DNA from: Bradyrhizobium diazoefficiens
GTDB lineage: Bacteria; Pseudomonadota; Alphaproteobacteria; Rhizobiales; Xanthobacteraceae
DNA length: 64,000 nt
NCBI RefSeq assembly: GCF_016616235.1
Contig: NZ_CP067100.1
Coordinates: 186,001-250,000 of the forward strand
Reading direction: 5' to 3'
In this document: piece by piece, positions 3,102-22,776 of the stretch
How the letters are laid out: each line of letters opens with the position of its first letter
Numbering within the stretch: the first letter of the stretch is position 1
The notes under the pieces: generated by a model
Database searches by the model: none
Seen by the model: the letters and a program-made list of their open reading frames with translations, nothing else
Told to the model about the DNA's origin: nothing
Made by a program: the position numbers and the translations under genes

Positions 3102-3103
3102 GG

Positions 3104-4918: not shown

Positions 4919-5037
4919 GCGGACTCAACGTCTCGAGGGCGATTCGTTCCGTGAAGCGGCGCCAGACAACATTCGCGGTCGCTCGGAACGAAGGCGCAGC
5001 GCGTCCGTTGGTCGGAATCGCTTGCGAGGTCGGGCAG

Positions 5038-5169: not shown

Positions 5170-5259
5170 CGGCGCGACCGATTATGCGGGGTTTGAGCGA
5201 CCGCAAGCCCTGGCCTGACGTGCCGCGTGCGAATTTGGGCGCCTCCGGTCGCTAGTTGC

Positions 5260-5922: not shown

Positions 5923-5944
5923 GACATCTTGGCTCCAGGCGTGA

Positions 5945-6139: not shown

Positions 6140-6424
6140 CCGCCGCCGACCGAACAAATCGCGGAGCGCCGGCTTCCGACGTGGGGGAGGCGCGTGTGAC
6201 GGCGGCCAGAGTGGGCGGGAACTCAGAGCAGCGCCAGGACCGCGACCACCATCACCAAACCCGTCGCGGTCACGCACCAGCATGACATTGCGAGTTGATA
6301 ATCAGCCCCGGTGAAAAGGGCCTGTCCTGGGTGCCGACGCTATATCCGGAACCGGCGTGCGAACCGCAACTTTTCATGTCCTCATGTGTTCACGACAGGG
6401 GCATAGGATAGGCAAGGCGTGCCG
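6140..6424. other. Intergenic; possible 21-residue peptide only
   Basis: About 285 bases without a supported gene. The minus strand holds a 21-codon frame (6288 to 6223) encoding a mostly hydrophobic peptide, but it has no ribosome site and is not annotated as a gene. Confidence 0.35.
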
Positions 6425-6526
6425 ATGCCCCTCATGCCGATAGGTGACGTCTTTCTCACGGTGGCGATCATGACCCTCGCGTTCCTGGGCGAGGTCGCGG
6501 TGTTTGCTCTTCTCGGAATCTTCTGA
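6425..6526 (+). CDS. Possible 33-residue membrane peptide
   Basis: ATG at 6425 to TGA at 6524-6526. Almost the whole product is one hydrophobic segment (VFLTVAIMTLAFLGEVAVFALL) with a single buried Glu. Small one-helix proteins like this are frequent in rhizobial genomes, but there is no strong ribosome site and no recognised family. Confidence 0.25.
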   Translation: MPLMPIGDVFLTVAIMTLAFLGEVAVFALLGIF

Positions 6527-6652
6527 GCGCTTTGGCTGAGGGGGTTGGCGCGACCATGGCGGATCCGCAGCGTGCGGTGTGGCGCGGCATCGGATTGCTA
6601 CGGACCCCACTTTCGCGGATTCTTTTACGATTTCGGCCTAAATTCCGGCTCG

Positions 6653-6817
6653 ATGGACGGCGACTATGATCCCGAGCGCGAAGCCGAAGCGGCGATGAAG
6701 CTGGCCGCGGCGACGGATGGACCGGAGCGCTGGATCCGTCTGGCGACGGCATTGCACGAAATCGCTCGCATGCGGCAGCCCTCGATGTTCGGCCCCCGCA
6801 GCGAAGAGGCGGACTAA
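6653..6817 (+). CDS. Short hypothetical protein
   Basis: 54 residues from the ATG at 6653; the upstream part of the frame is Cys/Arg-rich and looks non-coding. The product is acidic and helical (DPEREAEAAMKLAAAT, then WIRLATALHEIARMR). No known domain. Its stop overlaps by four bases the stop of the convergent gene at 6814-7083. Confidence 0.45.
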   Translation: MDGDYDPEREAEAAMKLAAATDGPERWIRLATALHEIARMRQPSMFGPRSEEAD

Positions 6818-7083
6818 TCGGGATGCGGCGGGCACTCCGGGCAGGTGTCGCCGATCGAGTCGAGAACTTTCCGAACTTCTGCTGCGGCCTCCTCGGGAGA
6901 GGCGCCCGCCGGTGGATTCTGGCGGGCGATGTCAAAAGCTCGGGCGCGCGCATGCGGGTCGGCGCGGTCCTGCATCCAGCCGTGCTCCTCGCACTCGCTG
7001 ATGGCGCCGGCGTCCTGCAGCACCGAGATCACCCAACCGCGCAGCGTCCGGATCGTCGGCCGTCTTTCCTTCGTCATCAGCAT
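6814..7083 (-). CDS. Small hypothetical protein with C-terminal Cys pair
   Basis: 89 residues; the start at 7083 has GGGAG eight bases upstream. The N-terminus (TKERRPTIRTLRGWVISVLQ) looks like a short helical DNA- or protein-binding unit; ECEEHGWMQDRADPHAR follows, and the chain ends in CPECPP. The pair of cysteines could hold one metal with C37 and H40. No recognised family. It lies downstream of, and on the same strand as, the SRAP operon, separated by 167 bases. Confidence 0.6.
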   Translation of the reverse strand: MLMTKERRPTIRTLRGWVISVLQDAGAISECEEHGWMQDRADPHARARAFDIARQNPPAGASPEEAAAEVRKVLDSIGDTCPECPPHPD

Positions 7084-7250
7084 CGAGACCGCTCCCACCC
7101 GGACGAATCCTTGTGCCGTCCGCGTCGTTCCCGGCGGTTAGCACAGAGCAGGGATTCGAAATCGCTGGGTGCGCCGCTTCTCCACGTGTTCCGCCGCCCT
7201 GTGCACAGCGGCGAACTCAAATTGGCAGCAGCTTGCCCAAAGTGCCTTCC

Positions 7251-7979
7251 TCACGCGGCGAGCGCGGGGTCTTCCTTCTCGCCCGTTGCGACAATCCGCA
7301 GCGCGCCCTCCGGGAGAGGCCGCTGCAGCGACTTCACCTCGTACCAAGGAGCGCGGAGCCAGACCTCGTACTCCTCCGCCGTCTCCAGGATCACCGGCAT
7401 CGCCTTGGGATGGACGCGCTTGACCTCCGTGTTCGGCTCGCAGGTGAGGAAGCCGAAGACATCGGTGGTGATCTCGCCTTCCTTCGCCTTCGGCACACTG
7501 GTCCAATTCGTCCACAGCCCGGCAAATGCGGTCAGAGGCCGCGCCTCGTCCAGAGCGAACCAGACCGGCACTTTCTTGCCATCGATCCTATCGTACTCGG
7601 AAAAGCACGTGAACGGCACCAGGCAGCGATGCTCCGGTCCGAGCCACCGCTTCCAGTGGGAGCTGTTGACGTTCCTGATGTTGGTCGTGCCGCCGTCCGG
7701 CTCCATCCGCAGCAATTCCTTGAAATCGACGGTCTGCCCCCTGGCCTGCAGCTTTTCCGCGCGCTTCTTGGTCGCGTCCATCTGGGCCCGCTGCGAACTC
7801 GGCATGCCCCAGCGTGCCATGACGATCTCGCGTCCCTCGGCACCGTTACGCACGATCGGTGCGGGATAGTCCGGAAATATGCCGGGCGTCGATGGCAGGT
7901 TGCCGACATCACTGTTCAGCGCGCCGAGCAGGCGACGGATCGCGTCGACGTTCTTTGTCATTGAGTAGAGATTGCACAC
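7251..7979 (-). CDS. SRAP abasic-site protein (YedK/HMCES family)
   Basis: 242 residues. The start is taken as the GTG at 7979 because the family requires Cys at position 2, which forms a thiazolidine crosslink with abasic DNA after Met removal; this gives M-C-N-L-Y-S. GGAGAG lies six bases upstream. Other family landmarks are the Asn in NIRNVNSSHWKRWL, the catalytic Glu in CLVPFTCFSEYD, and the His in VHPKAMPVILE. The protein shields abasic sites in single-stranded DNA. It is the last of three minus-strand genes that begin behind a LexA-type box at 8872; the upstream gene stops only two bases before this start. Confidence 0.9.
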   Translation of the reverse strand: MCNLYSMTKNVDAIRRLLGALNSDVGNLPSTPGIFPDYPAPIVRNGAEGREIVMARWGMPSSQRAQMDATKKRAEKLQARGQTVDFKELLRMEPDGGTTNIRNVNSSHWKRWLGPEHRCLVPFTCFSEYDRIDGKKVPVWFALDEARPLTAFAGLWTNWTSVPKAKEGEITTDVFGFLTCEPNTEVKRVHPKAMPVILETAEEYEVWLRAPWYEVKSLQRPLPEGALRIVATGEKEDPALAA

Positions 7980-7981
7980 GA

Positions 7982-8431
7982 TCAACTCTCCGGAGCGACC
8001 AGGCGGGGTCGCGACATCAGTTGCAGCAGCGTGGCGGACGGCCGACGGCCGGCCTTAGCACATTTGCTGCAGCGTAGCCGGCTGGCCAAGTCGTGGACAA
8101 ATGTGGTCGGCGGATGACGCAGCGCGGCCAGGTCGACGTCCCGTCTCGTCTTGCAGCGCGAGCATTCGATCTCGAGCGAGGCGAAGCCTCCGTTGATGGC
8201 CTGGTCGACCGTCGGTGATGGGTCAATGGGCCCGCCATCCGCCCACATGCGCTCGTTCCAGGATTCGCAGAACAACTTGTCGGCCTGACGAATGAGCGCT
8301 TCGCCTTTAGCCCGGGCTTCGGCGGCCTGTCCTGCGAGGATCGTCGTCATCGCGCGTGCCCGGCCGAGCTCCTTGGTGAGCGCCTTGCGGTCTCCTCCGG
8401 AGAGGGGCGTCGGGTGATGTTTCGGTGCCAT
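7982..8431 (-). CDS. Zinc-ribbon hypothetical protein in SRAP operon
   Basis: 149 residues from the ATG at 8431. The N-terminal half is helical and basic (PLSGGDRKALTKELGRAR). The C-terminal half has two CxxC pairs about 30 residues apart (CSRC...RLRCSKC), a likely zinc ribbon. The segment between the pairs resembles that of the neighbouring product of 8463-8861, so the two may be diverged paralogues. Stop and next start (SRAP) are two bases apart. A DNA-damage role is inferred from the operon. Confidence 0.7.
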   Translation of the reverse strand: MAPKHHPTPLSGGDRKALTKELGRARAMTTILAGQAAEARAKGEALIRQADKLFCESWNERMWADGGPIDPSPTVDQAINGGFASLEIECSRCKTRRDVDLAALRHPPTTFVHDLASRLRCSKCAKAGRRPSATLLQLMSRPRLVAPES

Positions 8432-8462
8432 GGCAGCATCCAGGTTTGGGACGCGCCGGCGA

Positions 8463-8861
8463 CTATTCGAACGCAGGCCAACAGCCGTCTTCCTCATGGC
8501 GCCCGGTCCGCTGCGTGCAGGTCTTGTCCAACAGCCGCTGTCCGACATCTTTCCAGAGCGCGTCCGGACCGTAGAGACGAGCGGCGTCGACCTTCTGGAT
8601 CTCGACCACCCTGGCACAGCGGCGGCAGCTCACCCTCAGAACATGTTGAGGAATTTGGCTTAACCGCAGCGTGCCGCCGCACGGACTTGCCGGCTTGGCT
8701 TCGGCGCGGGGGTCGTCCAGAAGCGCCTGCCAGTACTCCCGCGGCAGATCATCGTCTGGAGCCAATCCGGGCTTCGGCGGCATGTTTCTGCGGACGCCAG
8801 CAGCCATCTTTTCCATTTGCTTGGGGGTCGGCATGCGCCAGCTCGCGGGTCGATCGGTCAT
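8463..8861 (-). CDS. Zinc-ribbon hypothetical protein, first gene of SRAP operon
   Basis: 132 residues from the ATG at 8861 (MTDRPASWRMP). Residues 19-50 carry a Pro-rich RNMPPKPGLAPDDDLPREYW segment. Residues about 64-116 hold a Cys set (C60, CRRC at about 77-80, C114) with VEIQKVDAARLYGPDALW between, similar in layout to the downstream zinc-ribbon protein. The start codon lies only 11 bases from the LexA-type repeat, with no clear ribosome site, so the message may be nearly leaderless. 31 bases separate it from the next gene. Confidence 0.7.
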   Translation of the reverse strand: MTDRPASWRMPTPKQMEKMAAGVRRNMPPKPGLAPDDDLPREYWQALLDDPRAEAKPASPCGGTLRLSQIPQHVLRVSCRRCARVVEIQKVDAARLYGPDALWKDVGQRLLDKTCTQRTGRHEEDGCWPAFE

Positions 8862-8871
8862 GTTACGATTA

Positions 8872-8886
8872 GAACATAACAAGAAC
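8872..8886 (-). promoter_or_regulatory. LexA-type box (GTTC-N7-GTTC)
   Basis: On the plus strand GAAC-ATAACAA-GAAC, which read on the minus strand is GTTC-N7-GTTC, the direct-repeat SOS box known for alphaproteobacterial LexA. It sits 11 bases upstream of the first gene of the SRAP operon. About two matches to the eight fixed bases are expected by chance in a window this size, so the call rests on position and on the repair function of the operon. Confidence 0.65.
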
Positions 8887-9000
8887 ATAAGAGTCGAGCC
8901 CCCGACCAAAAATTGGACTTATGGCGAGGCAGCCGTTGTCGGAACCATGGTCTGCCGTTCGTCTTGAATCCAGGCCGTCTCGAACCGGAGTTCTGCGTAC

Positions 9001-9924
9001 ATGGCCCCCCGTGCCAACTGGAAAGGCTTCCTGCGTTTGTCGCTCGTGACGTGCCCTGTGGCGCTCTATCTGGCCACCTCCGAGTCAGAGAAGATCAGCT
9101 TCAACCAGCTCAACCGGCAGACCGGCCACCGCATCAAGTACCTCAAGGTCGACGCCGATACGGGCGACGAGGTGCCCAACGAGGACATCGTCAAGGGGTA
9201 CGAACTCGACAAGGGCCAGTACATCGAGGTCACCAAGGAGGAGCTCGAGGAGATCGCGCTGGAATCCACGCGCACCATCGAGATCGACGAATTCGTCGAC
9301 AAGTCCGATATCGATCCGCGTTACCTGATCCGCCCGTACTACCTGCGGCCGGACGGAAAGGTGGGCCACGACGCCTTCGCGGTGATCCGCGAGACCATCC
9401 GCGAGATGAACAAGGTCGCGATCGGCCGGGTGGTGCTGACAAACCGCGAGCACATCATCGCGCTCGAGCCGCTCGACAAGGGTCTCGTCGGCACGCTGCT
9501 CCGGTATCCCTATGAGGTGCGCAGCGAGCAGGAGTATTTCGACGAGATCCAGGACGTCAAAGTCACCAAGGACATGCTCGATCTCGCCAGGCACATTGTG
9601 AACCAGAAGGCGGGGCGCTTCGAGCCCGAGAAGTTCGAGGACCACTACGAGACCGCGCTGATCGACCTCATCAACCAGAAGCGCGCGGGCAAGCCAATCA
9701 CGCCGAAAGAGCGGCCCGCATCGACTAACGTCGTTGACCTGATGGAAGCGCTCCGCCGATCCGTCGGCAAGGAGGCTGCGCCGGCAAAGGCCGCAAAGCC
9801 AGGCAAGAAACCGCGCAAGGCATCGAGTGGTCAGAAGGAGATGCTGATGCCGATCGAGGGCAAGAAGCCCAATGTGACGGCGGCGAAGAAGCCGGCGGTC
9901 AGGCCGCAGCGGAAGTCAGCCTGA
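9001..9924 (+). CDS. ku: Non-homologous end-joining protein Ku
   Basis: 307 residues. Opens with the family signature APRANWKGFLRLSLVTCPVA. The core beta-barrel follows (ISFNQLNRQTGHRIKYLKVD, then EIDEFVDKSDIDPRYL and the bridge region), then RFEPEKFEDHYETALIDLI, typical of the end of bacterial Ku cores. The last 70 residues are a Lys/Pro/Ala-rich tail, as in many bacterial Ku proteins, thought to bind DNA and LigD. Ku dimers encircle broken DNA ends and recruit LigD, encoded 4 kb away on the opposite strand. Divergent from the SRAP operon. Confidence 0.95.
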   Translation: MAPRANWKGFLRLSLVTCPVALYLATSESEKISFNQLNRQTGHRIKYLKVDADTGDEVPNEDIVKGYELDKGQYIEVTKEELEEIALESTRTIEIDEFVDKSDIDPRYLIRPYYLRPDGKVGHDAFAVIRETIREMNKVAIGRVVLTNREHIIALEPLDKGLVGTLLRYPYEVRSEQEYFDEIQDVKVTKDMLDLARHIVNQKAGRFEPEKFEDHYETALIDLINQKRAGKPITPKERPASTNVVDLMEALRRSVGKEAAPAKAAKPGKKPRKASSGQKEMLMPIEGKKPNVTAAKKPAVRPQRKSA

Positions 9925-9944
9925 GGTCGGAATAGGAGGACCGC

Positions 9945-10190
9945 ATGGATATGAAAGAAGCTTCCGCAATGACAGAAGCCTCTGGCCTCGTCGACGATCA
10001 GGACGCTGTCGGCGCACCGCAGCCGAGCGGCAAGACGGAGTCAGCCGTGACCCGCAGGTCGCTGCGCAAGCCTGCGAACGAGGCGGCGCTGCACTGGGCC
10101 GAGCTGCTGCGTAAGTTGACGGTGCAGGCCCCGTTGTCCTCGCTCTTCGTCGCGTTCCTACTCGGCACATGGGTTGCACGCCGGCGCTAG
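9945..10190 (+). CDS. Small protein with C-terminal membrane segment
   Basis: 81 residues; ATG at 9945 preceded by AGGAGG. The N-terminal 60 residues are polar; residues about 62-77 (APLSSLFVAFLLGTWVA) form one hydrophobic segment ending in RRR, as in tail-anchored proteins. It lies 20 bases after ku and probably shares its transcript. No recognised family. Confidence 0.6.
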   Translation: MDMKEASAMTEASGLVDDQDAVGAPQPSGKTESAVTRRSLRKPANEAALHWAELLRKLTVQAPLSSLFVAFLLGTWVARRR

Positions 10191-10218
10191 GGCCAAGCCG
10201 CGGGGGCTGCCGATATCC

Positions 10219-10829
10219 ACGGCAAGGAAGCTCAAGACATTTCAGACGTCGCTGGGCTTCTATGATCTGGCGATCGCGGCGCCGTCTATGAAGGCGGCGC
10301 TCGAGGCCTGGGGCGCTGGCAGCAATCTCTTCCATCAGGGCGTCGCCAAGGAGACGGACGACCCCGGCGTGGTAGCCGCACGATGTCGAAGCCAGGCGTG
10401 GTGCTCAAGCGCCCGGCGGGATCGAATGGCAACTTCGCCGAGCACTCCGACCTCCCGTCCGATCTGAGATCCGGCGAGAACCGGACTCTGCGCGGAAGAC
10501 ATCGGCAGAAGCCGGCGAAACGAGCCGCTCCCAAGATCAGCGAACAACAAGCCCGAAAAGCCGCGGCTGATTTCGAGAAGGAGAGTAAACGCCGCGAAGC
10601 CGAACGCCGGCGGGAAGAGGCTGTCCGAGAAAGGGAGCGCGAACGGCGCGAGAAGGCAACGGCCAAAGCGCAAGCGGCAATGGACCAGGGTGAGCGCGAA
10701 CACGACAGGAAAGCAGCGGCCATCCAAGCCGAGGTGGAGGCCCTCGAGAAACGGTCACGCGCGGAAGATGACCGGTGGGAAAAGGAAAGAGCGCGGCTGC
10801 AAGCCGCGCTGCGGCGTGCGCGCGATTAG
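10219..10829 (+). pseudogene. Broken TolA-like/coiled-coil gene
   Basis: Two frames together make one protein. The first part (from 10219) reads ARKLKTFQTSLGFYDLAIAAPSMKAALEAWG and runs to about 10382. The second, from 10383, continues with SKPGVVLKRPAGSNG and then a long Arg/Glu/Lys coiled coil (residues about 60-140). Restoring one A at about 10381 (GCACG to GCAACG) joins them in frame. The expected start codon is ACG at 10219, where the family starts with Met. I recall this family as small 'TolA-like' proteins encoded near ku in Bradyrhizobium. With a lost start and a one-base deletion, the gene is probably dead, although an ATG at 10174 overlapping the previous gene could still drive the first part. 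Confidence 0.6.
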
Positions 10830-10920
10830 GCCGAACGCGAAACGCTCCACCCGTACGGCAAGATGGCAAAACGACACCTAAAGCGTCTTGCCGATCCAAT
10901 CTATATCACCCCTCACCCCT

Positions 10921-10992
10921 CTGCCTGCCTGCTCTGCCTGCTCTGCCTGCTCTGCCTGCTCTGTCTGCCCTGTCTGCCTGCTCTGTCTGCCT
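10921..10992. repeat. 9-bp tandem repeat (TGCCTGCTC)
   Basis: About seven to eight copies of a nine-base unit, TGCCTGCTC, the last ones diverged to TGTCTGCCC. It lies in the roughly 250-base gap between the broken TolA-like gene and the next gene, where the sequence becomes pyrimidine-rich. Every frame through it is open simply because of the repeat. Confidence 0.8.
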
Positions 10993-11080
10993 ACCCACCC
11001 TTCCAAATATCCAACACCCAACCTCCCTAGAGAACTCCCCCCACTTTTGCGCAGAGAACAATTCAATGCAGGAGAACAGC

Positions 11081-11440
11081 ATGGATAAGGGACGCAATAC
11101 CTCACAAATGAACTCCGCTCTTGAACGGCTTCGTGCCGAGCGTATCCGCCACCAACAAACCTCCGAATACCAGATCAAGGTTGGCCCTTACAATTTCTAT
11201 CCGGGCAAAGGGACGATCTTCATGGATGGGGATCGAGAGGCCCACCCCGAACGCGGCCTCGACGAGTTCGTCGCACTGTTGCGCAAGCTGAAGGCCCGCA
11301 ACCCTAACGTCACCGAACAAAAGGTAAGTCGCGAACCAATCTTTCAGAAAGGAACCAACGGGTTTGATCTCCGGCAAGCAATCAGCGATCCGGAAGAGGC
11401 TGAGCGCTTTTTTCGCTGTGTTCCGAAAACAGGGCGGTGA
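11081..11440 (+). CDS. Hypothetical protein
   Basis: 119 residues from the ATG at 11081, chosen over the ATG at 11066 because GGAG lies about ten bases upstream of the former. Residues 8-30 are a basic helix (ALERLRAERIRHQQ). A strand pair follows (YQIKVGPYNFYPGKGTIFMDGD), then a helix (GLDEFVALLRKLKARN). The layout suggests a small alpha/beta protein; I do not recognise it. It stands alone on the plus strand and converges on the clamp-loader cluster, 97 bases from the nearest minus-strand gene. Confidence 0.6.
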   Translation: MDKGRNTSQMNSALERLRAERIRHQQTSEYQIKVGPYNFYPGKGTIFMDGDREAHPERGLDEFVALLRKLKARNPNVTEQKVSREPIFQKGTNGFDLRQAISDPEEAERFFRCVPKTGR

Positions 11441-11537: not shown

Positions 11538-12056
11538 CTAGTTGTCCTCCACGACATTAAGATGATCTTGGACAATCTCCCCGAGCCACGACCACTCGGG
11601 CTCAACCGTCGACCGTATTAGAGCCCGGATGCGCGGCGTTGTCCCACGAATATCAAGGTCTCGTATGAGAGAGGCGAGATGAACCTTGTCTTCAATCCCC
11701 TCAAGCTCCTCAATTGTCGGAGGCAGCAAAAAGCAAGGGTATGTGATCGGGTCAATGCCATAGCGCCAGGTCGGGTATCGATGGGCGAACAGGTCCGCCG
11801 CATCTCCATCCCGGCAAAGCTTCTCGATCGCTTCATCCGGAATGAGATGACCAAAGGGCTCATTCGCAAGAGCCGCTCGCACCGAAGCCGGGTCACTCAT
11901 ATCCACGTTCCGCACGTACCGTCCGATCACCAACCCACGGGCTCGACGGGCGGCCGCGGCCTCCTCCTCCGACCAGCGACCCGCGAATGGCCGCTCGACA
12001 AAAGGTTGGCTGACCTCACGGCTCCCTCCCCGCTTCCTGCGCGTTGTCGAATTCAT
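11538..12056 (-). CDS. Hypothetical protein at end of clamp-loader cluster
   Basis: 172 residues; the ATG at 12056 has GGGAG seven bases upstream. The N-terminal 25 residues are basic and unstructured. A helical segment (WSEEEAAAARRARGLVIGRYV) follows, then PDEAIEKLCRDGDAADLFAHR, WRYGIDPITYPCFLLPPT, and a C-terminal helix rich in Trp and acidic residues. No known domain recognised. It is the last minus-strand gene after the two DnaX-like ATPases, 159 bases downstream of the second one, so it may be part of the same unit. Confidence 0.6.
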   Translation of the reverse strand: MNSTTRRKRGGSREVSQPFVERPFAGRWSEEEAAAARRARGLVIGRYVRNVDMSDPASVRAALANEPFGHLIPDEAIEKLCRDGDAADLFAHRYPTWRYGIDPITYPCFLLPPTIEELEGIEDKVHLASLIRDLDIRGTTPRIRALIRSTVEPEWSWLGEIVQDHLNVVEDN

Positions 12057-12215
12057 CTCAGCACTCCCATGAACAGGCCTATTCCGCCTCTTGGCTGACC
12101 CGGCCAGCCGGTCACCCAATTCGGTCCCGACCCCCCGCAATTGCCAACACTTGATCGCTCCAATAGGAATCGAGGTGCTAAATCAACATTTCTAAATCAA
12201 CAAGCGCGAGAGTGG

Positions 12216-13424
12216 CTAAATTAGAGCGGTTCCGGTCGCCATCTCCAGGTCATTACTGGTCGACCTAGTTCCGGTTAGGTCTTCATAACCCTTGAGGAAA
12301 CTGGCCCTCCACGGCACGCCGACCTTCACGGAAGCCCAAAAGCCGAGCGCCCGTTCGATCGCTTCATCGAGCTCGAGACCCCGAGCTTGGCACCACCCTG
12401 TCCAATCCCGCAAAATGCGCTCCCAACTTTCGGCCGACAGAAGACCCAACGCCGGGCTCACGCTCGCGGCCACCGGCAGACCGCCCGCCGCCTTGCGAAT
12501 GCGGCATTCTACGAGAAATGCTTGCATTGCCCTGACCCGCATAGGACCATGCGTACCGATACTCCCAAACAACGACATTGCTTCGTCGCGGTGACCGCTC
12601 AGCACAGCCCGCCAACACGCCAGCATCGTCGGACCCCAGCCGAACTCCGGCTCGCGCACAAGATTTTGGACCGTGACATCCCCGCGGCGCTCGATGGGAG
12701 CGAGAATAGCCAACGCCTCCCCAAATGAGCCGTTGCCGGCAACCGCGACTGCCCGCAAAGCCGCTTCATCGAACATCACCGACCGCCGCTCGCATATCAG
12801 CGACAAACGACCGACCATATCCTCCACCGATATCGGCCCAACACGATAAACGTTGCACCGCGATCGCAATGCGGCCGAAAAACGCGCTTCGTCATTCACA
12901 AGGAACACAAAGAGGCTCGACGAGACCTCCCGCTCCAGGGTCTTCAAGGCGATATCGGCGGTGGTGCCCGTGAACTCTTCGGAGTTGTTGAACACGACGA
13001 CCCGCACCGAAGCAGTATTCAAGCCTCCCTCGCGCTCAATCAGCGTATGAAGGGCCTCACCCTGCGCTTTCTCCAACACCCCTGCATCATCATCCTCGCC
13101 ATCCTCGCCACGTACGTCCTTCTCGACCCAACCCCAGCTTCGTTCTTCTTTCAGCGCACGACATTCATAACAATGGCCGCAGGGATCGCCATCGATCCGT
13201 GAAGCAAGCGCCCGCTCACAAAGCAGCGCCTGGGCATACATTTTCACCAATGTTCGCTTTCCGACGCCTGGCGAGCCGATCAGAGCGATCGGCTGATGCG
13301 AATTCGTTGCGCGCTCTCTCTTCAGGTTGGAAAGCAACGTCTCGAACCACCGCTCATGACCCAAGATGTCCTTGAACGAGCGCGGCCGCTCCCGCTCCAA
13401 ATAAGTGTCCAGCGATTGTCTCAT
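12216..13424 (-). CDS. DnaX/HolB-like clamp-loader ATPase, degenerate Walker B
   Basis: 402 residues from the ATG at 13424, which overlaps the TGA of the upstream gene (TGATG), so translation is probably coupled. Residues 12-200 follow the bacterial clamp-loader pattern: an N-terminal RPRSFKDILGHE (RPK.F..V.GQ in DnaX), Walker A GSPGVGKRT at 50-58, a four-Cys zinc module (C69, C82, C85, C88), and the SRC arginine-finger motif at 188-190. Walker B is VVVFNNSEE (about 142-150) instead of hhhhDExH, and the sensor-2 Arg is replaced in NGSFGEAL, so ATP hydrolysis is doubtful. The C-terminal 150 residues are helical, as in a clamp-loader collar. It probably forms a mixed ring with the 682-residue homologue. 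Confidence 0.8.
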   Translation of the reverse strand: MRQSLDTYLERERPRSFKDILGHERWFETLLSNLKRERATNSHQPIALIGSPGVGKRTLVKMYAQALLCERALASRIDGDPCGHCYECRALKEERSWGWVEKDVRGEDGEDDDAGVLEKAQGEALHTLIEREGGLNTASVRVVVFNNSEEFTGTTADIALKTLEREVSSSLFVFLVNDEARFSAALRSRCNVYRVGPISVEDMVGRLSLICERRSVMFDEAALRAVAVAGNGSFGEALAILAPIERRGDVTVQNLVREPEFGWGPTMLACWRAVLSGHRDEAMSLFGSIGTHGPMRVRAMQAFLVECRIRKAAGGLPVAASVSPALGLLSAESWERILRDWTGWCQARGLELDEAIERALGFWASVKVGVPWRASFLKGYEDLTGTRSTSNDLEMATGTALI

Positions 13425-14758
13425 CAATCGGACTCCGCGTCCGCCATCAAAGGCTCTTCATTTGACGAATCAGGGGCTTCTCCGCTCCTTGCCAAGCTGG
13501 TTAGGCAATGAAACCAATCGACGCCGTTTCCCGTCATTGCTTCCAACCGCGCGCGCAAGGCGCGCTGCACTTCAAGCCGCGCGTTATCCAGTCGGCTCGG
13601 CTCTTTTACTGTGTTGATCTCCAGCAATGGCGCAATTGCCTGCCACCCATCACCTGAAGAAAACCAAGCTGGCGCTCCCGCAACCCGGCTATATTTCTGA
13701 CAGAGATAGTCCATCGAGACGAACGCATTTCCGTTCAGAAACCTGTGCTCATTCGCCAAGAGTAACGCAGCCCACACGCAATGCATGGGATCTTCAACGC
13801 GCCGATAGCGCCTGTCACGACTTTCCAGGGTTGCGGTTGTCGCCCGATAGAGCCTCGTCAAGATTTCACTGGGATCGAGCATCCTGTTATGGTGCAGACC
13901 ATCGACCAACTGCATTAGTGCTGAGAATGATGCGCCATCGCGATCGTCCAAGAACCGCCTCAGCGTCTCAGGCAGAACCCACCGTCTCCTGCGCTTCGTC
14001 TCTGTCTCCTCGTTAAAACGGAATTCGCCGCCTTCCATTTCGCCCAAGACGATCAGATCAATCTGACGCGATAGTTCGAACGGCGTGCACGTCCCCTGCT
14101 CGACGAACTTCCTCAATCGCGTCAAGAAACGTCGATTGCCCGAGAGGTGGCTCAGATTGCCCAGTCGACTTTGCGGAAAGTAACTACGCGCGACAGGAAG
14201 GTAACTATCAAGGCTAACCATCGGCTCCTCGATGAGACCGACTGTTCCGACAGCGGCACGCCAAGCATCGGTTTTGACGACCTCGTGCGTTCCCGGTACG
14301 AGCAAACAAAGCGACTGGAGCGCAGCATCTCTTGCGATTAGATCCAGGGCAGTTTCGATATCATCCAGCGGTGGATGCCTCAGCGTCTTATCGCCGAGAT
14401 CGTGCACGGTAAGCGTGTCACTGAGCAAGGAAGCCTCAGCAACCGTCACGTGCAAACTGGGCAAAACCACGTTCTCAGACAGTTCCACTGAAGCGTCGCT
14501 CTTATCGGAGTCCGGCCGTCCGTCACCACCGGGGCTGCTAGGCTCTCGAGCTTGCGATTGGAGGGCGAGTGCGCCCGGCTTCACAACGCGCTGGGAAGAT
14601 GTCGAAACATCTTTCAGCTTACGCCCATCGAGCTCGGCCTGTCTGATCACCTTCGCGCGAACAGTGGCTCGCAACAGAGCCGAATTTTCACGATAGAGAT
14701 AGAGATGATTCTTCTGGGTGAGCTCGGGCAGCTGCACGAACTCAATGTCAGTCATCAT
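13424..14758 (-). CDS. Unrecognised protein between two clamp-loader ATPases
   Basis: 444 residues from the ATG at 14758 (a second ATG follows directly). Residues 1-60 contain alternating strands and basic helices (LYLYRENSALLRATVRAKVIRQAELDGRK). Residues 60-95 are a low-complexity linker rich in Ser, Pro, Gly and Asp. The rest is mostly helical, with LSRQIDLIVLGEMEGG, KRRRRWVLPETLRRFLDDRDG and a long region (SRDRRYRRVEDPMHCVWAALLLANEHRFL). No nucleotide-binding, nuclease or polymerase motif is visible. The stop of the 682-residue ATPase lies 11 bases upstream, and its own stop overlaps the next ATPase start, so it is likely a subunit of the same complex. Function unknown. Confidence 0.75.
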   Translation of the reverse strand: MMTDIEFVQLPELTQKNHLYLYRENSALLRATVRAKVIRQAELDGRKLKDVSTSSQRVVKPGALALQSQAREPSSPGGDGRPDSDKSDASVELSENVVLPSLHVTVAEASLLSDTLTVHDLGDKTLRHPPLDDIETALDLIARDAALQSLCLLVPGTHEVVKTDAWRAAVGTVGLIEEPMVSLDSYLPVARSYFPQSRLGNLSHLSGNRRFLTRLRKFVEQGTCTPFELSRQIDLIVLGEMEGGEFRFNEETETKRRRRWVLPETLRRFLDDRDGASFSALMQLVDGLHHNRMLDPSEILTRLYRATTATLESRDRRYRRVEDPMHCVWAALLLANEHRFLNGNAFVSMDYLCQKYSRVAGAPAWFSSGDGWQAIAPLLEINTVKEPSRLDNARLEVQRALRARLEAMTGNGVDWFHCLTSLARSGEAPDSSNEEPLMADAESD

Positions 14759-14769
14759 AACCGGTGTAC

Positions 14770-16818
14770 TCAAGGGCGGCTCCAAATCGCCCACGGTCGC
14801 ACTGGAGCGCTTGCCGCCCAGCGTTTGCGCAGCTCCTCCAGCTCATAGTCCTGCACTTCTTTCGAGCGGGCCGAGCCATCCAGGGGATACCGCGCCACCA
14901 CGTCCGCAAGCGCAGCTTGCCAAAGCAGCTTCTGCTCTTTGCGGCACCTGAACTCCTCCAGTTCCCAGCCGTCGTACAAACGGCCCCATTGCTTGTCATC
15001 GAACGCGGAGACGAGATCCACCCCACACTCAAGCTCAGCTTTTCGCCTCGCGGCTGCCCCCAGCGGCTCGGAAAAATCCAGCCGCGTTCGCTTGCCGATG
15101 TTTCCGGCAACACGTCGGTACGCTGACTCGATATTCAGTTTGGCGAAGATCGGATCAGTTGGGTTGAAGCCCCCGCATAGCCACCGCACGCAACTCCAAT
15201 GCCCATCGAGCATTTCGCCCTCGGGCACCATCTCGAGCGTAATCGCTTCGTCTTCCTTGCCCGGCACGCGATCACCTCTGTGCCATTTCTTCAACCAGCG
15301 GTCGGCCACCTTTGCATCCGGAACATGGGCGATAACCCGACCACATGATCCTTCGTCCTCGTCTCGCTCCTGAACGAACACTCGAAGACCGGAGCCGCCC
15401 CAGTTTTCGAGCTGTCCCTTCAGAGCCTGGCTAAACTTAGCGAAATGCTTGGACGCTTCCGCCTGCTCTTCGTGGCCAAAGAGACGGTGTCGAATTATGA
15501 TTCGGGCATTGAATGGCGGGTGGCCTTGCTGCACCAAGAATGACGCGGCGGCAAAGATGCTACGAACGTGGCTCCGGTGCAGATAAGCTGGATCTTTGGG
15601 CGCATCCTCATCATCCCGCTTGCGGAGAATCCGCCCCGACGCAGTTATTGGGACCTCTTGCCCCACGGGTTGTGCCGTGATGCGCTCCGCCTCGTTCGAT
15701 CGAGGAACGATCTCGCCGCGATTCACGCTAGCCTGAAAACGCATCAAAACAGCTAGAAGCGCTTCGTCACTCAAATCGCTGGTAACGACGGGCCACGCGT
15801 TCAATAAGCTTTCGAAAAACGCCTTCAGATCTATGGTCGGCAACCTCTTCATAAACGCGTTGGTGACGCGACTGCGCTCCTCCTCTCTGATGGATGCGAT
15901 TACCGGTTCGACCGAGACGTCCAGTCCGCAGAGCTCGACGTAGTACAACCCCACCAGAAACAGCTGGATTAAGCGCGCCTTGTTGCGAACGCTATCCGAC
16001 CACCGCAAAAACCTCCTGGTCTGCAGATTGAAGTCACCCGCCCCGAGAGCCTCGAAATACTGGATGAGATGTTCGATGTAGTCGACGCCAAAGACGTCAG
16101 CCACTCGATCCCGCGTGATTTTTGTTCCATCGCTAGTCAGACCCATCTTATCGAGAGCCTGAAGCATGTTCCTCGGCTGATGCTCACCCAGGCCTGCCAG
16201 CAGCGAAAGGGCTTCAGGATGGAAGGTGAGACTCTCCTCGCTTGCGGTACGGGCGAGAAGGCCGACACTCTGTTCATGGGTCAGGGGCCGAAGCTCCAAC
16301 ATGATGGTGCGAGAGCGCAACGCATCAGAAATTCTCTCCACTGCTGTCGTTGCAAAACAGAAAGACACACCTGGCGGCGTCTCTTCGACGCTCTTTAGGA
16401 GAAAGTCGAAGCTGTCCCGGTACTTCGATAGCACATGCGCTTCATCCAGAAAGATCACCGTCCGTTTGCCACACTTCGCGGATTCCAACAGGCGGTCGAT
16501 CTCAATCTCAAGCGCGCGCCGCTCCCTGAATTTCGGGGTGTCCAGTTCGGTGAAGCCGGTGTCGTCGCCAGCATCCCAAGCCTTGCACTGTCTGCAAGCG
16601 AAACATCTGTCACCCGTTGCCGTAGGCGCTTCGCAGTTTAAGGCCGCGGCATAAATGCGCACCAGCGTGGTTTTGCCAGACCCTACGCTGCCGTGCAGGA
16701 GCAGATTTGCGCAACTCTGCCCGTTCCGAATGAGCTGCGATATGATCCGTTTTGGATATTCCTGGCCTACAACTTGTTCGAAGGTCTTTGGGCGATATTT
16801 CAAGGCAAGACGTTTCAC
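14770..16818 (-). CDS. DnaX-like clamp-loader ATPase with Rep-like C-terminal half
   Basis: 682 residues from a GTG start with AGGA six bases upstream. Residues 1-240 are a canonical DnaX-type AAA+ module: LALKYRPKTFEQVVGQE, Walker A GSVGSGKT (43-50), zinc cysteines C62/C72/C75/C78, Walker B VIFLDEAH (121-128), sensor 1 CFATT, SRT (169-171) and sensor-2 R216. Residues 240-400 are a helical collar-like region. Residues about 425-595 resemble a rolling-circle replication-initiator-type protein: FNARIIIRH (436-444), EGSCGRVIAHVP where a GxHxHxxxHVP motif would be expected, and GNIGKRTRLDF then EPLGAAARRK (572-593). The HUH histidines are missing. The host's own dnaX would lie elsewhere. Heads an overlapping gene set with the 444- and 402-residue proteins. 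Confidence 0.82.
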   Translation of the reverse strand: MKRLALKYRPKTFEQVVGQEYPKRIISQLIRNGQSCANLLLHGSVGSGKTTLVRIYAAALNCEAPTATGDRCFACRQCKAWDAGDDTGFTELDTPKFRERRALEIEIDRLLESAKCGKRTVIFLDEAHVLSKYRDSFDFLLKSVEETPPGVSFCFATTAVERISDALRSRTIMLELRPLTHEQSVGLLARTASEESLTFHPEALSLLAGLGEHQPRNMLQALDKMGLTSDGTKITRDRVADVFGVDYIEHLIQYFEALGAGDFNLQTRRFLRWSDSVRNKARLIQLFLVGLYYVELCGLDVSVEPVIASIREEERSRVTNAFMKRLPTIDLKAFFESLLNAWPVVTSDLSDEALLAVLMRFQASVNRGEIVPRSNEAERITAQPVGQEVPITASGRILRKRDDEDAPKDPAYLHRSHVRSIFAAASFLVQQGHPPFNARIIIRHRLFGHEEQAEASKHFAKFSQALKGQLENWGGSGLRVFVQERDEDEGSCGRVIAHVPDAKVADRWLKKWHRGDRVPGKEDEAITLEMVPEGEMLDGHWSCVRWLCGGFNPTDPIFAKLNIESAYRRVAGNIGKRTRLDFSEPLGAAARRKAELECGVDLVSAFDDKQWGRLYDGWELEEFRCRKEQKLLWQAALADVVARYPLDGSARSKEVQDYELEELRKRWAASAPVRPWAIWSRP

Positions 16819-16947
16819 GAGAATTCCTAGTTAATACTGTTTGGCGCGCCTTTATCTAGGCGCACGACTGGGTGCGAGCGGCGCTTTTCATGACAACGCG
16901 GCGGCCAGTTACGGCCGCCGCGGGTGAGTGGATGGAGGCATAAGCCG

Positions 16948-17589
16948 TCAATGCATCATGAAGGACAAGCATCCGCCGAGTTCGAGAGCATCCTGACGGT
17001 ATGGCTCATTGAGTGTGATGACCTCTTCATCCCACGTAGGCTCTTCCGCGTACTTGGATGTGAATTTCAACGGCGTGGAGAGCGGCCCGTCGCCGCGGAA
17101 GGCGACCGTTTCTGCACAACCAACGATGAATTCGAACCCTGCCGTTCGTGCGAGCCGTCGCGAAAGTGGGCCGGAGCCCGAGCACGCGCGACGCAACTCG
17201 TCGTGGAGTTCAGGAAAGCACCACCAATCATATTCGCCGAATAGGAACGCGTGCGACAGCTCCTCAGTGTTGTCGATGTCCTTGAAGCGAAGGCGAGCCT
17301 TCTCGATCTCTTTGGAGTCTACATCATTCAAGGTTTCGAAATAGTCGTCGGGGAGGTCCGCAAAGTCGTCGTCGAAGTAGCCGTCGGGCAAAGTTTCGAA
17401 CAGATCGGCGTTTTCGAGTTCGGCAGGTGCGGTGGGAACCGAAGGCGCGGCGTTAGTTGGCGCTTTCGGCGCCTTCGACGTCCCCTTGGGTGACTTGGAC
17501 GTGGACGTGGACGTGCTATCGCCGACATCACGCGCCCAGACAAGAGTTAAGTGTTTGATCTTCTTTGGAATATCTGATCGATCGGCCAT
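16948..17589 (-). CDS. Acidic hypothetical protein, first gene of clamp-loader cluster
   Basis: 213 residues; ATG at 17589 with GAGG five bases upstream. Residues 1-20 are basic, 22-58 are a Ser/Thr/Pro/Lys linker, and 60-90 are strongly acidic with a repeated LPDGYF/LPDDYF motif. Residues 95-213 look folded (AFLFGEYDWWCFPELHDELRRA, then AGFEFIVGC). The two LPD[GD]YF copies look like short partner-binding motifs. No family recognised. It lies 129 bases upstream of the GTG of the DnaX-like gene on the same strand, and 61 bases downstream of a LexA-box-like repeat. Confidence 0.65.
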   Translation of the reverse strand: MADRSDIPKKIKHLTLVWARDVGDSTSTSTSKSPKGTSKAPKAPTNAAPSVPTAPAELENADLFETLPDGYFDDDFADLPDDYFETLNDVDSKEIEKARLRFKDIDNTEELSHAFLFGEYDWWCFPELHDELRRACSGSGPLSRRLARTAGFEFIVGCAETVAFRGDGPLSTPLKFTSKYAEEPTWDEEVITLNEPYRQDALELGGCLSFMMH

Positions 17590-17649
17590 TGGCCCCTCTC
17601 ATGGTCGGGCCTCGGCACGTCATGAGCGGAGCACCCATACAATATAGAG

Positions 17650-17664
17650 GAACAAAGAACGAAC
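17650..17664 (-). promoter_or_regulatory. LexA-box-like repeat upstream of clamp-loader cluster
   Basis: Plus strand GAAC-AAAGAAC-GAAC; minus strand GTTC-N7-GTTC, the alphaproteobacterial SOS-box pattern. It lies 61 bases upstream of the acidic protein gene and just before a TATATT hexamer that could be a -10 element (minus strand). Roughly two chance matches are expected in the window, so this is only suggestive. Confidence 0.35.
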
Positions 17665-17849
17665 CTATGAAAACCCATTATCACAATCGCGTGAATTGAA
17701 TTTGCCGATCATTTAGAGGCCGGTCGGCTGGTTTCTTGGTTTGGATCTAGGATCGGATCACTTTCTCGTCCCGTCAACCAACGTCAATTCCACCATCGGC
17801 TCGCTGAATCTCTCTCGCCACAACGGCAACAACAAGAGAGAGAGACACC

Positions 17850-19043
17850 TTGAGCAACACCGAAGCAACGACACCAGCCTCCGCCTCATCAGGCACCCGG
17901 AAAAGAAAAGCCAAATTCACGCAACTCACCCAGACCCCTTGGGTGCCGGAGCGCATGCTTCAGGAATACGGCGGCACATGCAATATTGACTCAAGATTCC
18001 GCCGCTGCGCCCGTATGCTCCAAATTTTCTGGATGCGCGACCACGGCATCGCCAATGCAATTCCCGACGCCGCGAGTAGCACGCATCTCGGCTCCTATCT
18101 CAGCTCCGATGCCGCGGAGGCCGGCCTCAATTTCCTGACCCCCGAAATCCACCTCCTCGCGCTACGCGAAATGCTTCTCCGCGAAGACGACGCCGCCATA
18201 GACGAAGATCGGCTCGTTGCGAATTCGTTGAGCTCGCAGCCGCTGGTGTTCAATGCGTTCGGTCCATTGGCGCTCGACGTCAAGCTGGCCACCAAGGTGT
18301 TCCGTCAACTTCTGCCCGACTTCGTCCAATCGGTCGAGAAAGTCGTCTTCGAACATTCTCCTGGACGGCGCGATGACCGCTTCCTCGCCGATCGCTCCGC
18401 CTTCGACGTCGCTGTTCATGTCAAGACACCGGAAGGCGGGTCCGGCATCGTCTATGCCGAGATGAAATACAGCGAAGACATGACCGGCCCCGCGGCACGC
18501 TGGCGGGAACGCTACGAACAGGCATTTAAGGAGGTTCGTTTATTCAAGGATCCCACCAGCCCGATCCTTCGTTCCATACCGGTCGAGCAATTGGCCCGTG
18601 AACATTGCCTCAGCCAGCTTGCGGTCGACAACGGCGTAACACCGCGCGCTATGTTCATCGGCATCGGGCCTCGGCTCAATCGGCGCGTCCAGGCCGCCTT
18701 CTTCGTCTATGCCAACGAGTTGCTGCCGATCGACGAGACCGATCGATCACGCGTCGGCTTCCAGCATTTCACCCTGGAGACGTTCATCGATGCCATTGAC
18801 GTGGCAGGCGATGGGGAAACTGCTGACCAGCTTTGGAAGCGCTACTGCGACTTCCAGCGCGTCTATGACGCCGCTCTTGCGGTCATTGCGCCGAAGACCC
18901 CCGTCAATGAGACGCCGAGTCCGGTCGCAGATCAAGCCGCCCATGATACGAATCTTCGTCCTCAAGAGGGCTCTCGCAAGAAGCGAAGCCGACCGGCTCA
19001 TCCCGCGAGCTCTTCCGAAGTCACGGATGCTGCGAATGCATGA
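17850..19043 (+). CDS. PD-(D/E)XK nuclease-like protein (PGN_0703 type)
   Basis: 397 residues from a TTG start preceded by a GAGAGAG tract; no ATG lies near the family's usual beginning. Residues 45-100 carry the family landmarks RFRRCARMLQIFWMRDHGI, HLGSYL and NFLTPEI. The nuclease core is at 175-210: D186 in SAFDVAVHV and E204-M-K206 in VYAEMKYSED, the D...ExK signature. Family members are predicted restriction-type endonucleases. The C-terminal 50 residues are a charged tail. First gene of a plus-strand set in which the next two genes overlap its end, and divergent from the clamp-loader cluster across a 260-base promoter region. Confidence 0.75.
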   Translation: MSNTEATTPASASSGTRKRKAKFTQLTQTPWVPERMLQEYGGTCNIDSRFRRCARMLQIFWMRDHGIANAIPDAASSTHLGSYLSSDAAEAGLNFLTPEIHLLALREMLLREDDAAIDEDRLVANSLSSQPLVFNAFGPLALDVKLATKVFRQLLPDFVQSVEKVVFEHSPGRRDDRFLADRSAFDVAVHVKTPEGGSGIVYAEMKYSEDMTGPAARWRERYEQAFKEVRLFKDPTSPILRSIPVEQLAREHCLSQLAVDNGVTPRAMFIGIGPRLNRRVQAAFFVYANELLPIDETDRSRVGFQHFTLETFIDAIDVAGDGETADQLWKRYCDFQRVYDAALAVIAPKTPVNETPSPVADQAAHDTNLRPQEGSRKKRSRPAHPASSSEVTDAANA

Positions 19044-19377
19044 CTCAGCTCTTCTACCGGACGAATTGAAGATTCGTTTGTTCGCGAACGCCTTGGCGGA
19101 TGAGCGCGACCATTTTCCGGTGGTCAAACTGTTCACGCCTGACGCAGGCGCGACCTGGCTCCTCGTAGAGTGTGACCCTGACGAGCCGGATCGGTTGTTC
19201 GGCCTGTGTGACCTGGGTCTCGGGCATCCGGAGCTCGGCTGGGTCAGCCTCGCGGAAATCGAGGAGATCAGAGGTCGCCTGGGCCTTCCCGTGGAACGGG
19301 ACCTTCATTTCACCCCGGACAAGCCGATTTCGGTATACGCCGCTGAAGCCCGAGCCAAAGGCCGCATCGTTGCCTAA
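19036..19377 (+). CDS. DUF2958 family protein
   Basis: 113 residues; the ATG at 19036 overlaps the end of the nuclease gene (an ATG at 19027 is also possible), suggesting coupled translation. Nearly the whole chain matches the DUF2958 pattern: LLPDELKIRLFANA, VVKLFTPDAGATWLL, LFGLCDLGLGHPELGWVSLAEIE, and LPVERDLHF near the C-terminus. The family is common on plasmids and integrative elements of alphaproteobacteria; its biochemical role is unknown. Its association with mobile elements fits the island setting. Confidence 0.85.
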   Translation: MHDSALLPDELKIRLFANALADERDHFPVVKLFTPDAGATWLLVECDPDEPDRLFGLCDLGLGHPELGWVSLAEIEEIRGRLGLPVERDLHFTPDKPISVYAAEARAKGRIVA

Positions 19378-19906: not shown

Positions 19907-20599
19907 ATGACGGACCGAAAGATCAACAATCCACGTTCATGGAATGGAAAGGCTCTCGCGGGTGACTGGTTGGTGACGCTGAAACTGGATGGAGTTCGTG
20001 CGATATGGCATGACAAGCGCGGCTGGTTGAGCCGGGCGAATAAGAGTCTCCATAACATTCCTCCTTGGCGCGCGGGTCAACCGCGAGACTGCGAGGTCTT
20101 CGTCAACAACTTCCGCGACACAATCAGGGCGACCCGTACCAGGTGTCTCAAGCAAGACACGCCCTCGATTGCACAAGAACACCTCTATGGCCTCGCCCTT
20201 CTCGACCAGCGCCTTCGTTGGGGAAGCTTGACCAACCCCACCCCCGCGGACATACGCGCCCAGCTCCAACGCGCCAATGACCTGGGCTACGAGGGTGTTG
20301 TCCTTCGTCAGGGCGACCATTGGATCAAGGTCAAGCCTGCGGAGACGCACGACGTCCTCATCACGGGATTCGCTGAAGGCAAAGGCAAGCATGGCGGCCG
20401 GTTGGGCTTCGTCACAACTGTAAAAGGCGCCGTGGGCGCGGGTTTCTCCGACAGCGAACGCGAGACTCTGTGGGCCGAAGCCAAGGCCCGAACGTTGGTT
20501 GGCCAAGTCATCGAGGTTAGCTGCCTCGAGCTCACGGCGGACAGAAAGTTCCGGCACCCGTTCTTCGTCCGCATGCGTCCAGACAAGACAGTCCCATAG
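19907..20599 (+). CDS. ATP-dependent DNA ligase, small phage-like form
   Basis: 230 residues. The nucleotidyl-transfer Lys is K26 in LKLDGVRAIW (KxDGxR). Other ligase motifs are LSRANK (motif Ia), CEVFV (motif III), GYEGVVLR (motif IV) and HWIKVKP (motif V). The C-terminal 70 residues are a short OB-like domain (VIEVSCLELTADRKFRHP). It has no extra N-terminal DNA-binding domain, as in small viral and plasmid ligases. It could seal nicks for the neighbouring nuclease or replication-like proteins, or belong to a mobile element. It stands alone, with clear gaps on both sides. Confidence 0.85.
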   Translation: MTDRKINNPRSWNGKALAGDWLVTLKLDGVRAIWHDKRGWLSRANKSLHNIPPWRAGQPRDCEVFVNNFRDTIRATRTRCLKQDTPSIAQEHLYGLALLDQRLRWGSLTNPTPADIRAQLQRANDLGYEGVVLRQGDHWIKVKPAETHDVLITGFAEGKGKHGGRLGFVTTVKGAVGAGFSDSERETLWAEAKARTLVGQVIEVSCLELTADRKFRHPFFVRMRPDKTVP

Positions 20600-21748: not shown

Positions 21749-22321
21749 TTGAGCGATACAGCGGCAAGGGACGATGCATGGTTCTATGCAGAAGGCGGCC
21801 AGCGCAAAGGCCCTGTGCCCTCCGACAAGCTACGCGAATTATTGGCGGCTCAGATGATCGACGGAGAGACCCCAGTCTGGCGTAAAGGCTTGGCTGACTG
21901 GCAACCATTGCGCACAACAGAACTCGGGACAGAGCTCAAGGATACTCCACCGCCCATCGCCGCGAACCACGTGAACAATGGTTTCGTGTGGGCGCTCGCC
22001 TTCGCGCCACTTGTCTATCTCTTCGTTGACGTCGCTCTACTCAATTACCAAAACAGCCATCCGGCAGGTGACGAGTTTTTCGACGCGTTTCTATCACCGC
22101 TCAGTTGGCTCGTTCCGGTGTTGACGAATGCGGGGCTGTGCCTAATCGACACGGAACAGCTCAAGCGTGCCGGCTACAGCGCGGGGTGGCTAACGCTCTT
22201 CGCACTGCTTTTGGCTCCAGTCTATCTTTTCGTGCGCGCGCAACGTCTTCGTCAGACTCCATTTTATGGATTTGTTTGGATCGCATCGTTCATCGCGTCG
22301 ATCATTTTGCGGGCGGCGTGA
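21749..22321 (+). CDS. GYF_2-domain membrane protein
   Basis: 190 residues from a TTG start. Residues 10-60 are a GYF_2 domain (AWFYAEGGQRKGPVPSDKLRELL, ETPVWRKGLADWQPL), a small module that binds proline-rich partners. Residues 78-190 hold four hydrophobic segments (about 78-97, 113-130, 146-162 and 170-187). The domain probably faces the cytoplasm, with the rest in the inner membrane. It starts a five-gene plus-strand unit; its stop is one base from the next start. There is no strong Shine-Dalgarno. Confidence 0.7.
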   Translation: MSDTAARDDAWFYAEGGQRKGPVPSDKLRELLAAQMIDGETPVWRKGLADWQPLRTTELGTELKDTPPPIAANHVNNGFVWALAFAPLVYLFVDVALLNYQNSHPAGDEFFDAFLSPLSWLVPVLTNAGLCLIDTEQLKRAGYSAGWLTLFALLLAPVYLFVRAQRLRQTPFYGFVWIASFIASIILRAA

Positions 22322-22322
22322 C

Positions 22323-22742
22323 GTGCAAACAGATTCCCATACCGACGACTTTATTTTCCTGGTGATTTTTTTCCTGGCCATCGGGATCATCTACATCGCG
22401 CCGACCCTCGTAGCATTCCGGCGCAACCACCCCAACCGTTGGATCATCATGGTCATCAATATCGCCTTCGGCGGCACGATCATCGGATGGGGAGTCGCGA
22501 TGGTGTGGGCGATGCGGGTGGCTCACCGAATAGGCTCTACAAGCAGCGGGGGCGAGTCCGGTCTCAACCTGTTCATCAACGACGTGAAGAAGATTCAGCT
22601 CGTCGACCCTCCACCTTTGCCACAGACATCCACCGTGCAAGAGCTGGAACGTATCCATGATCTCCTCGTGCGTGGTGCGATTTCTCAGGTTGAATTCGAC
22701 GGCCTGAAGGCCAAGCTGTTAGGTGGCGCTTCGTCACAATAA
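22323..22742 (+). CDS. Superinfection-immunity-like membrane protein with SHOCT tail
   Basis: 139 residues from a GTG one base after the previous stop. Residues 8-28 and 45-65 are membrane helices with YIAPTLVAFRRNHPNRW between them and NIAFGGTIIGWGVAMVWAM after, the pattern of the T4 superinfection immunity (Imm-like) family. Residues 104-137 form a SHOCT motif (VQELERIHDLLVRGAISQVEFDGLKAKLL), a short oligomerisation module. In T4 such proteins block DNA entry of later phage; a defence role here is possible but not shown. Confidence 0.75.
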   Translation: MQTDSHTDDFIFLVIFFLAIGIIYIAPTLVAFRRNHPNRWIIMVINIAFGGTIIGWGVAMVWAMRVAHRIGSTSSGGESGLNLFINDVKKIQLVDPPPLPQTSTVQELERIHDLLVRGAISQVEFDGLKAKLLGGASSQ

Positions 22743-22776
22743 TAGGGGTTCCCTTCATCGAGGCCTGAGCGATCAC

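Follow-up and report, generated by a model that had tools for sequence, protein, structure and literature searches.

A candidate clamp-loader module fused to an inactivated rolling-circle Rep domain on an integrative island of Bradyrhizobium diazoefficiens

Clamp loaders are usually seen as core parts of the replisome or as phage replication genes, and the VapE/primase-helicase modules of islands and satellites offer a further comparison among mobile elements. The T4 clamp-loader subunits gp44/62 and the definitions of the loader subunits are treated in passages of PMC3331839, and divergent marine clamp-loader subunits in passages of PMC12153180. Here we describe a gene cluster of Bradyrhizobium diazoefficiens, located at 11538-17589 on the minus strand of a 64,000-nucleotide stretch of contig NZ_CP067100.1 (positions 186,001 to 250,000; hereafter the window), in which an apparently complete loader occurs as a mobile accessory, its motor fused to an inactivated replication initiator. 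Loci of the same kind elsewhere carry active initiators or a predicted element-encoded sliding clamp. Computational analysis identified the subunit anatomy of the cluster, the Rep ancestry of the fused domain and its catalytic loss, the recurrence of the module, its alternation with intact Reps in loci encoding a PDDEXK_13 nuclease, its association with VapE-like and clamp-fold genes, and the island that carries it. On balance, and with modest confidence, we regard the cluster as a replication/processivity module of integrative genomic islands.

The five minus-strand open reading frames (ORFs) noticed in a preliminary description of this DNA are all present. From upstream to downstream, they encode an acidic LPDxYF protein (E, 16948-17589, 213 aa), a gamma-type ATPase (A, 14770-16818, 682 aa), a putative delta (B, 13424-14794, 456 aa from a GTG start or 444 aa from an ATG at 14758), a delta'-like protein (C, 12216-13427, 403/402 aa) and a small conserved protein (D, 11538-12140, 200 aa from a TTG or 172 aa from an internal ATG). 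The junctions had been described as mostly overlapping or near zero, which holds for A, B and C only: A and B overlap by 25 nt (an 11-nt gap if B starts at its 444-aa start) and B and C by 4 nt, whereas E and A are 129 nt apart and C and D 75 nt. D and E returned chance-level matches only (E-value 0.24 or worse) in four family libraries. Relatives of D lie downstream of delta' at two other loci, L001 (a contig of Bradyrhizobium sp. 21, genome G708, of the same genus as the window genome) and L075, and others, in L094 and with a weak match in L048, neighbour intact Reps; L075 also has, upstream of gamma, an ORF partly similar to E (42 bits). Against L001 and L075, nonsynonymous divergence (pN) is far below synonymous divergence (pS) for gamma, delta, delta' and D, and this, together with the recurrence of the operon in other genomes, indicates that the cluster is more than a chance arrangement.

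The N-terminal part of A (residues 1-390; 15649-16818, minus strand) matches the DnaX N-terminal model TIGR02397 (7.5e-49) and Escherichia coli gamma/tau in the Protein Data Bank (PDB; 5.3e-28). It carries a Walker A motif (GSVGSGKTT), a DEAH box (VIFLDEAH), a four-cysteine module and an SRT motif (ALRSRTI), thereby combining the Walker A, DExH, cysteine-module and SR(T/C) features that define a gamma-type ATPase. Of 20 sister gammas, 18 showed the Walker A pattern in a scripted search and L023 by eye; it was not found in L086. C also matches TIGR02397 (1.4e-25) and E. coli gamma/tau in the PDB, with further matches to PF13177 (1.1e-11) and, below cut-off, to the HolB model TIGR00678 (3.1e-17). 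The TIGR02397 matches and the shared cysteine module and SR motif bear out the clamp-loader descent previously proposed for both proteins. Neither reaches the curated cut-off of 250 bits for a housekeeping DnaX (166.9 bits for A, 90.3 for C), and a separate dnaX match lies elsewhere in the genome (C1:926080). The earlier reading of C as a second ATPase does not stand: its Walker A motif is degenerate (GSPGVGKRT), Walker B is missing and an SRC finger is kept. In 14 aligned delta' parts, GK is never followed by T or S, the DE pair of Walker B is always absent (DD in L022) and SR is always retained. These motifs point to a delta'-like subunit with a dead ATP site and a retained arginine finger, in which ATPase activity is unlikely.

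B, which the preliminary description had left unnamed, returned no match in any of the four family libraries, and its best value in a PDB profile search was 0.14. Its predicted fold is delta-like, so that A, B and C together look like the delta-gamma-delta' anatomy of a complete bacterial loader. The likeness to the DNA polymerase III clamp loader extends to the Walker A and B motifs, cysteine module and SRT of gamma and to the dead ATP site and SRC of delta', as well as to the delta-like predicted fold. Unlike that loader, however, the genes described here form a single operon on a mobile island and score too low for a housekeeping DnaX, eight sister loci encode delta and delta' in a single gene (split or short in two of them), and gamma ends in a dead Rep domain.

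This C-terminal domain (PsiRep; A residues 405-682; 14773-15606, minus strand) had escaped the preliminary description. A profile built from these residues and eight relatives (A2) found matches in at least 23 of 391 family genomes, in 6 of 47 genera, with up to six candidates scored per genome; in a class-wide search, with up to eight scored, at least one of 289 genomes was positive, namely the window's own. Besides gamma genes, A2 found seven stand-alone, ATPase-free proteins (best L088, 4.1e-34), all of which share the HxH and YxxK motifs of HUH Reps. L094 matches PF23343 (REP_ORF2-G2P) at 32.1 bits, above the cut-off of 27.8, with L088 (26.3 bits) and L092 (18.8 bits) below it. Scans of five of the seven (L088, L091, L092, L094 and L047) against Pfam and PHROGs gave matches to PHROG families of rolling-circle replication or replication initiation for L088 (8.2e-4) and L094 (7.8e-5) only; the L094 Rep had no match in the PDB. 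A profile of the seven intact Reps (A5), run against 60 genomes, found five places, corresponding to two intact Reps and three gamma C-termini, and matched the window gamma at 2.2e-22 in that search and at 9.4e-23 in the ORF set. The HUH histidines, present in 7/7 intact Reps, are found in 0/23 PsiRep copies (fused or detached, including the pieces in L027, L083 and L089), and the catalytic tyrosine and lysine of YxxK likewise in 0/23 versus 7/7; the window has SCG and RWLCG at these positions. Compared with L001, the domain shows a pN of 0.167 and a pS, near saturation, of 0.709. By these sequence measures, PsiRep is an HUH Rep by descent that has lost its catalytic residues and evolves under constraint. 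It is thus homologous to the rolling-circle Reps of PF23343 over the HUH region, and intact members occupy the same kind of PDDEXK_13 locus, but it differs from them in the loss of HxH and YxxK and in its fusion to a clamp-loader ATPase.

Loci combining gamma and PsiRep were found 22 times in 21 genomes (G525 twice). Fragments of A in L083 and L090 were kept outside this number, as were G034 (weak PDDEXK) and G492/L072 (weak C-terminal match) outside the counts; the contigs of L026, L048, L049 and L089 measure 5-11 kb, and L081 and L082 are very similar. The preliminary description had asked whether the trio recurs, and had taken a failure of its two ATPases to co-occur elsewhere as grounds for rejection. 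Gamma is paired with delta and delta' in 15 of the 22 loci, the window included. Four of these, the window, L001, L022 and L075, carry gamma, delta and delta' as separate genes with no VapE (type 1). The other 11 also have a VapE-like gene, upstream of gamma, accompanied by a fused delta-delta' gene in L023, L024, L026, L027, L077, L078, L084 and L085 (split in L078, short in L085) and by separate delta and delta' genes in L080, L081 and L082. In the remaining loci, gamma is found with a divergent gene, U378 (L025, L076 and L079), whose product is predicted to adopt a beta-clamp fold, with two other divergent genes, U442 and U388 (L028, L086 and L087), or, in L089, in two ORFs downstream of a 405-aa ORF (5382-6599) that appears clamp-like by eye. 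Gamma is also split in L027. The VapE-like gene brings 11 of the 22 loci close to VapE/primase-helicase modules, although the window lacks it. No polymerase or sliding-clamp gene was seen near the cluster among the ORFs scanned in the window, as noted previously, and a single PF02767 beta clamp was found in the whole genome with a model that would miss divergent clamps. A second, divergent PF02767 match (59.5 bits) was observed in a relative (G007:C147:20123-20452).

The cluster faces a divergent plus-strand PD-(D/E)XK nuclease, as first described, which belongs to PDDEXK_13 (17850-19043; PF20796, 1.5e-85). This nuclease is the most constant neighbour of gamma, lying within the fetched stretch of 20 of the 22 loci (the exceptions being L026, a 9-kb contig, and L087), and it would be used more naturally in anti-phage or anti-plasmid defence, with the dead Rep recognising invader origins or intermediates, the loader placing or removing clamps and PDDEXK_13 cutting. 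In 60 relatives, the six genomes with gamma all fall among the ten with strong PDDEXK_13, an overlap with a chance of about 4e-6 on the assumption, not true here, of independent genomes; in one of the six (G033), however, gamma and PDDEXK_13 lie on different contigs. Of the remaining four, G015 and G035 carry an intact Rep, whereas in G001 and G028 the stretch read contains neither gamma nor an intact Rep. Defence-type cargo on the island and CBASS-type genes near the module in L023 and L025 are further points in favour of defence. PDDEXK_13 nonetheless also accompanies intact Reps, in six of seven loci (not L093), and occurs with neither partner in L045 and L046. Gamma and an intact Rep never share a fetched stretch, genome G540 having one of each in separate places, and this alternation, together with the VapE-like and clamp-fold genes, points to replication. 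Moreover, PADLOC (v2.0.0 of 2023) returned no useful match to any named system, in line with the earlier remark that no named defence or repair system of this composition was known to its author (best values 0.0048 for A and 0.0099 for C; no match for B, D, E or PDDEXK). Defence is the main rival reading, at a low probability.

Of the three roles initially offered, defence, repair and element replication, the last is the best supported: replication or stable maintenance of the element most simply accounts for a loader that alternates with Rep, has a dead Rep fused to it and lies beside a helicase-like or clamp gene. From these features we infer a pathway in which gamma, probably in several copies, would assemble with delta and delta' into a pentamer able to open a sliding clamp and place the ring on primed DNA. 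In the window, the clamp would be the host DnaN, and in three sister loci it may be the clamp-fold protein encoded beside gamma. PsiRep, its nicking chemistry lost, would bind the origin of the element or its DNA, bringing the loader, and hence host Pol III, to the excised element for replication; initiation chemistry would come from elsewhere, as from VapE in the loci that carry it (type 2). A broader proposal, that in a family of integrative islands a rolling-circle initiator has come to serve as an address tag that directs clamp loading and the host replicase to the element with no origin nicking, some members carrying the loader ATPase together with a ring of their own, is tentative and slightly less likely than not.

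Several observations weigh against a replication module. The delta and clamp assignments rest on predicted folds. In profile-profile comparisons, neither B against the housekeeping delta nor the clamp-like family against DnaN reached significance, some unrelated control pairs scoring better, and the best value of the clamp-like family in a PDB profile search was 0.041. In VIA, RFC subunits tie with bacterial delta, and the putative clamp-binding motif of delta, SLF in 35 of 40 homologues, reads SLL in the window. The gammas of L028 and L086 (type 3') carry DQ for DE in Walker B, the intact-Rep profile A5 did not reach the gammas of G012, G024 and G033, and neither Pfam nor PHROGs gave a Rep family for the stand-alone proteins of L091 and L047. 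Furthermore, the window has neither VapE nor a clamp of its own, L045 and L046 show PDDEXK_13 but, over the 20 kb read, no gamma and no Rep, genes for PDDEXK_13, DUF2958 and PP2C would be atypical of a replication module, and the evidence for an origin is a candidate 9-bp array in two of the four type 1 loci. Signs of present excision or replication of the 108.6-kb island were not seen, with no search aimed at them.

These arrays were found in a search for origins near the module in ten stretches, which yielded weak palindromes, and the arrays in the window and L001 only. In the window, 9-bp tandem repeats occupy 10921-10992, inside the longest reading frame of a small conserved plus-strand ORF at the opposite end of the module (sm120, 10775-11440); in L001, a similar array (16219-16324) lies upstream of the same small gene. 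The 9-bp unit was not found in the other eight stretches, L075 and L022 included. The arrays may represent origin iterons or just simple sequence.

The window lies in an integrative island, as its linkage to an integrase had suggested. Identical 18-bp repeats are found at genome positions 125122-125139, outside the window, and 233718-233735 (window 47718-47735), the latter at the 3' end of a tRNA-Leu(CAG), and a minus-strand tyrosine integrase (46031-47641; PF00589, 3.7e-10) lies nearby. In a relative, G009, the flanks are adjacent, and the 18 bp at their junction are those of both ends; this empty site and the matching repeats delimit an island of about 108.6 kb that thus combines integrase, att repeats and empty site. 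Same-genus matches to the right flank mostly start near the tRNA-Leu end; G002 has about 0.7 kb between the flanks, and G005 another insertion with a related integrase. Nested att repeats for a smaller element were not found within the island. At 45592-46179, overlapping the present integrase, lies a remnant of about 104 aa from the N-terminus of an integrase of the family found beside the module in sister loci. This remnant, the SLL motif of delta, the lack of helicase and clamp in the window, the split gamma genes (L027, L089) and the split or short delta-delta' genes (L078, L085) would fit a decaying replication module with no present function, but the five ORFs of the window are intact and pN is far below pS for the loader genes and D, making decay quite improbable.

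Further plus-strand neighbours include a DUF2958 protein (19036-19377, within ORF 18709-19377; PF11171, 7e-38), a short ATP-dependent DNA-ligase-like protein (19907-20599; PF14743, 1.8e-7; PF04679, 1.8e-6) and a group of recurrent genes at 21749-23538, comprising a GYF-like family (21749-22321, by eye), ORF 22266-22742 and a PP2C-like protein (22723-23538; PF13672, 1.2e-13). The ligase-like neighbour recurs in L001, L024, L025, L075, L076 and the PDDEXK contig L049, and a Ku-like gene (ORF 9001-9924, by eye) lies 1.6 kb to the left of the module. Both would suit a role in DNA repair or conversion, in which the loader aids resynthesis at breaks or on incoming single strands together with the ligase-like protein and PDDEXK_13. 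The DNA on the Ku side (window 2600-10400), however, is found again at numerous unlinked sites, both in relatives and in the genome itself, and is hence not tied to the module, and such a role leaves the Rep domain and VapE unexplained; we judge it improbable. SRAP-like genes were also noticed by eye in this left-hand region.

Like the phage clamp loaders (T4 gp44/62; PHROGs 5846, 168 and 11838), the module represents a mobile genome with its own loader, and PHROG 5846 matches the N-terminal ATPase of A (1.7e-41). A phage origin was nevertheless rejected, as B and PsiRep have no match in 50,697 phage records. PsiRep is also unmatched in 72,556 plasmid records, where full-length A matched 127 records, none over more than 80% of its length; two viral contigs match A over residues 1-196 only. 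No such module was found in the literature searched, outside the scope of which lay most subscription papers and bioRxiv. If true, a loader addressed by a dead Rep would be a mode of replication control that we have not found described for bacterial mobile elements, suggesting that mobile DNA may use the host copying machinery in a way not recognised so far. If the dead domain targets loading, the module would constitute a natural address-tagged clamp loader and an experimental handle on clamp placement at chosen DNA. The assignments also provide likely names for proteins now listed as hypothetical or as DNA polymerase III gamma/tau.

Beyond the module, the window carries composite defence-type cargo (24922-45984) that includes HNH, LmuB-like (2.7e-19) and DrmMI/type IIG methylase-like genes, helicases resembling DpdE (full length, 3.7e-189), DruE and HamB, and a weak match resembling HamA; no one named system known to us combines all of these. 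Near the module, L023 encodes a DncV-like cyclase and an E2/ThiF-like protein (15484-18325), L025 an E2/ThiF/JAB protein (14095-16764) and L028 a large protein with RHS and insecticidal-toxin-like domains (11623-18705). In L001 (105-3125), a TrwB/HerA-like ATPase and a Vsr-like endonuclease, the latter named by eye, adjoin the conserved neighbours.
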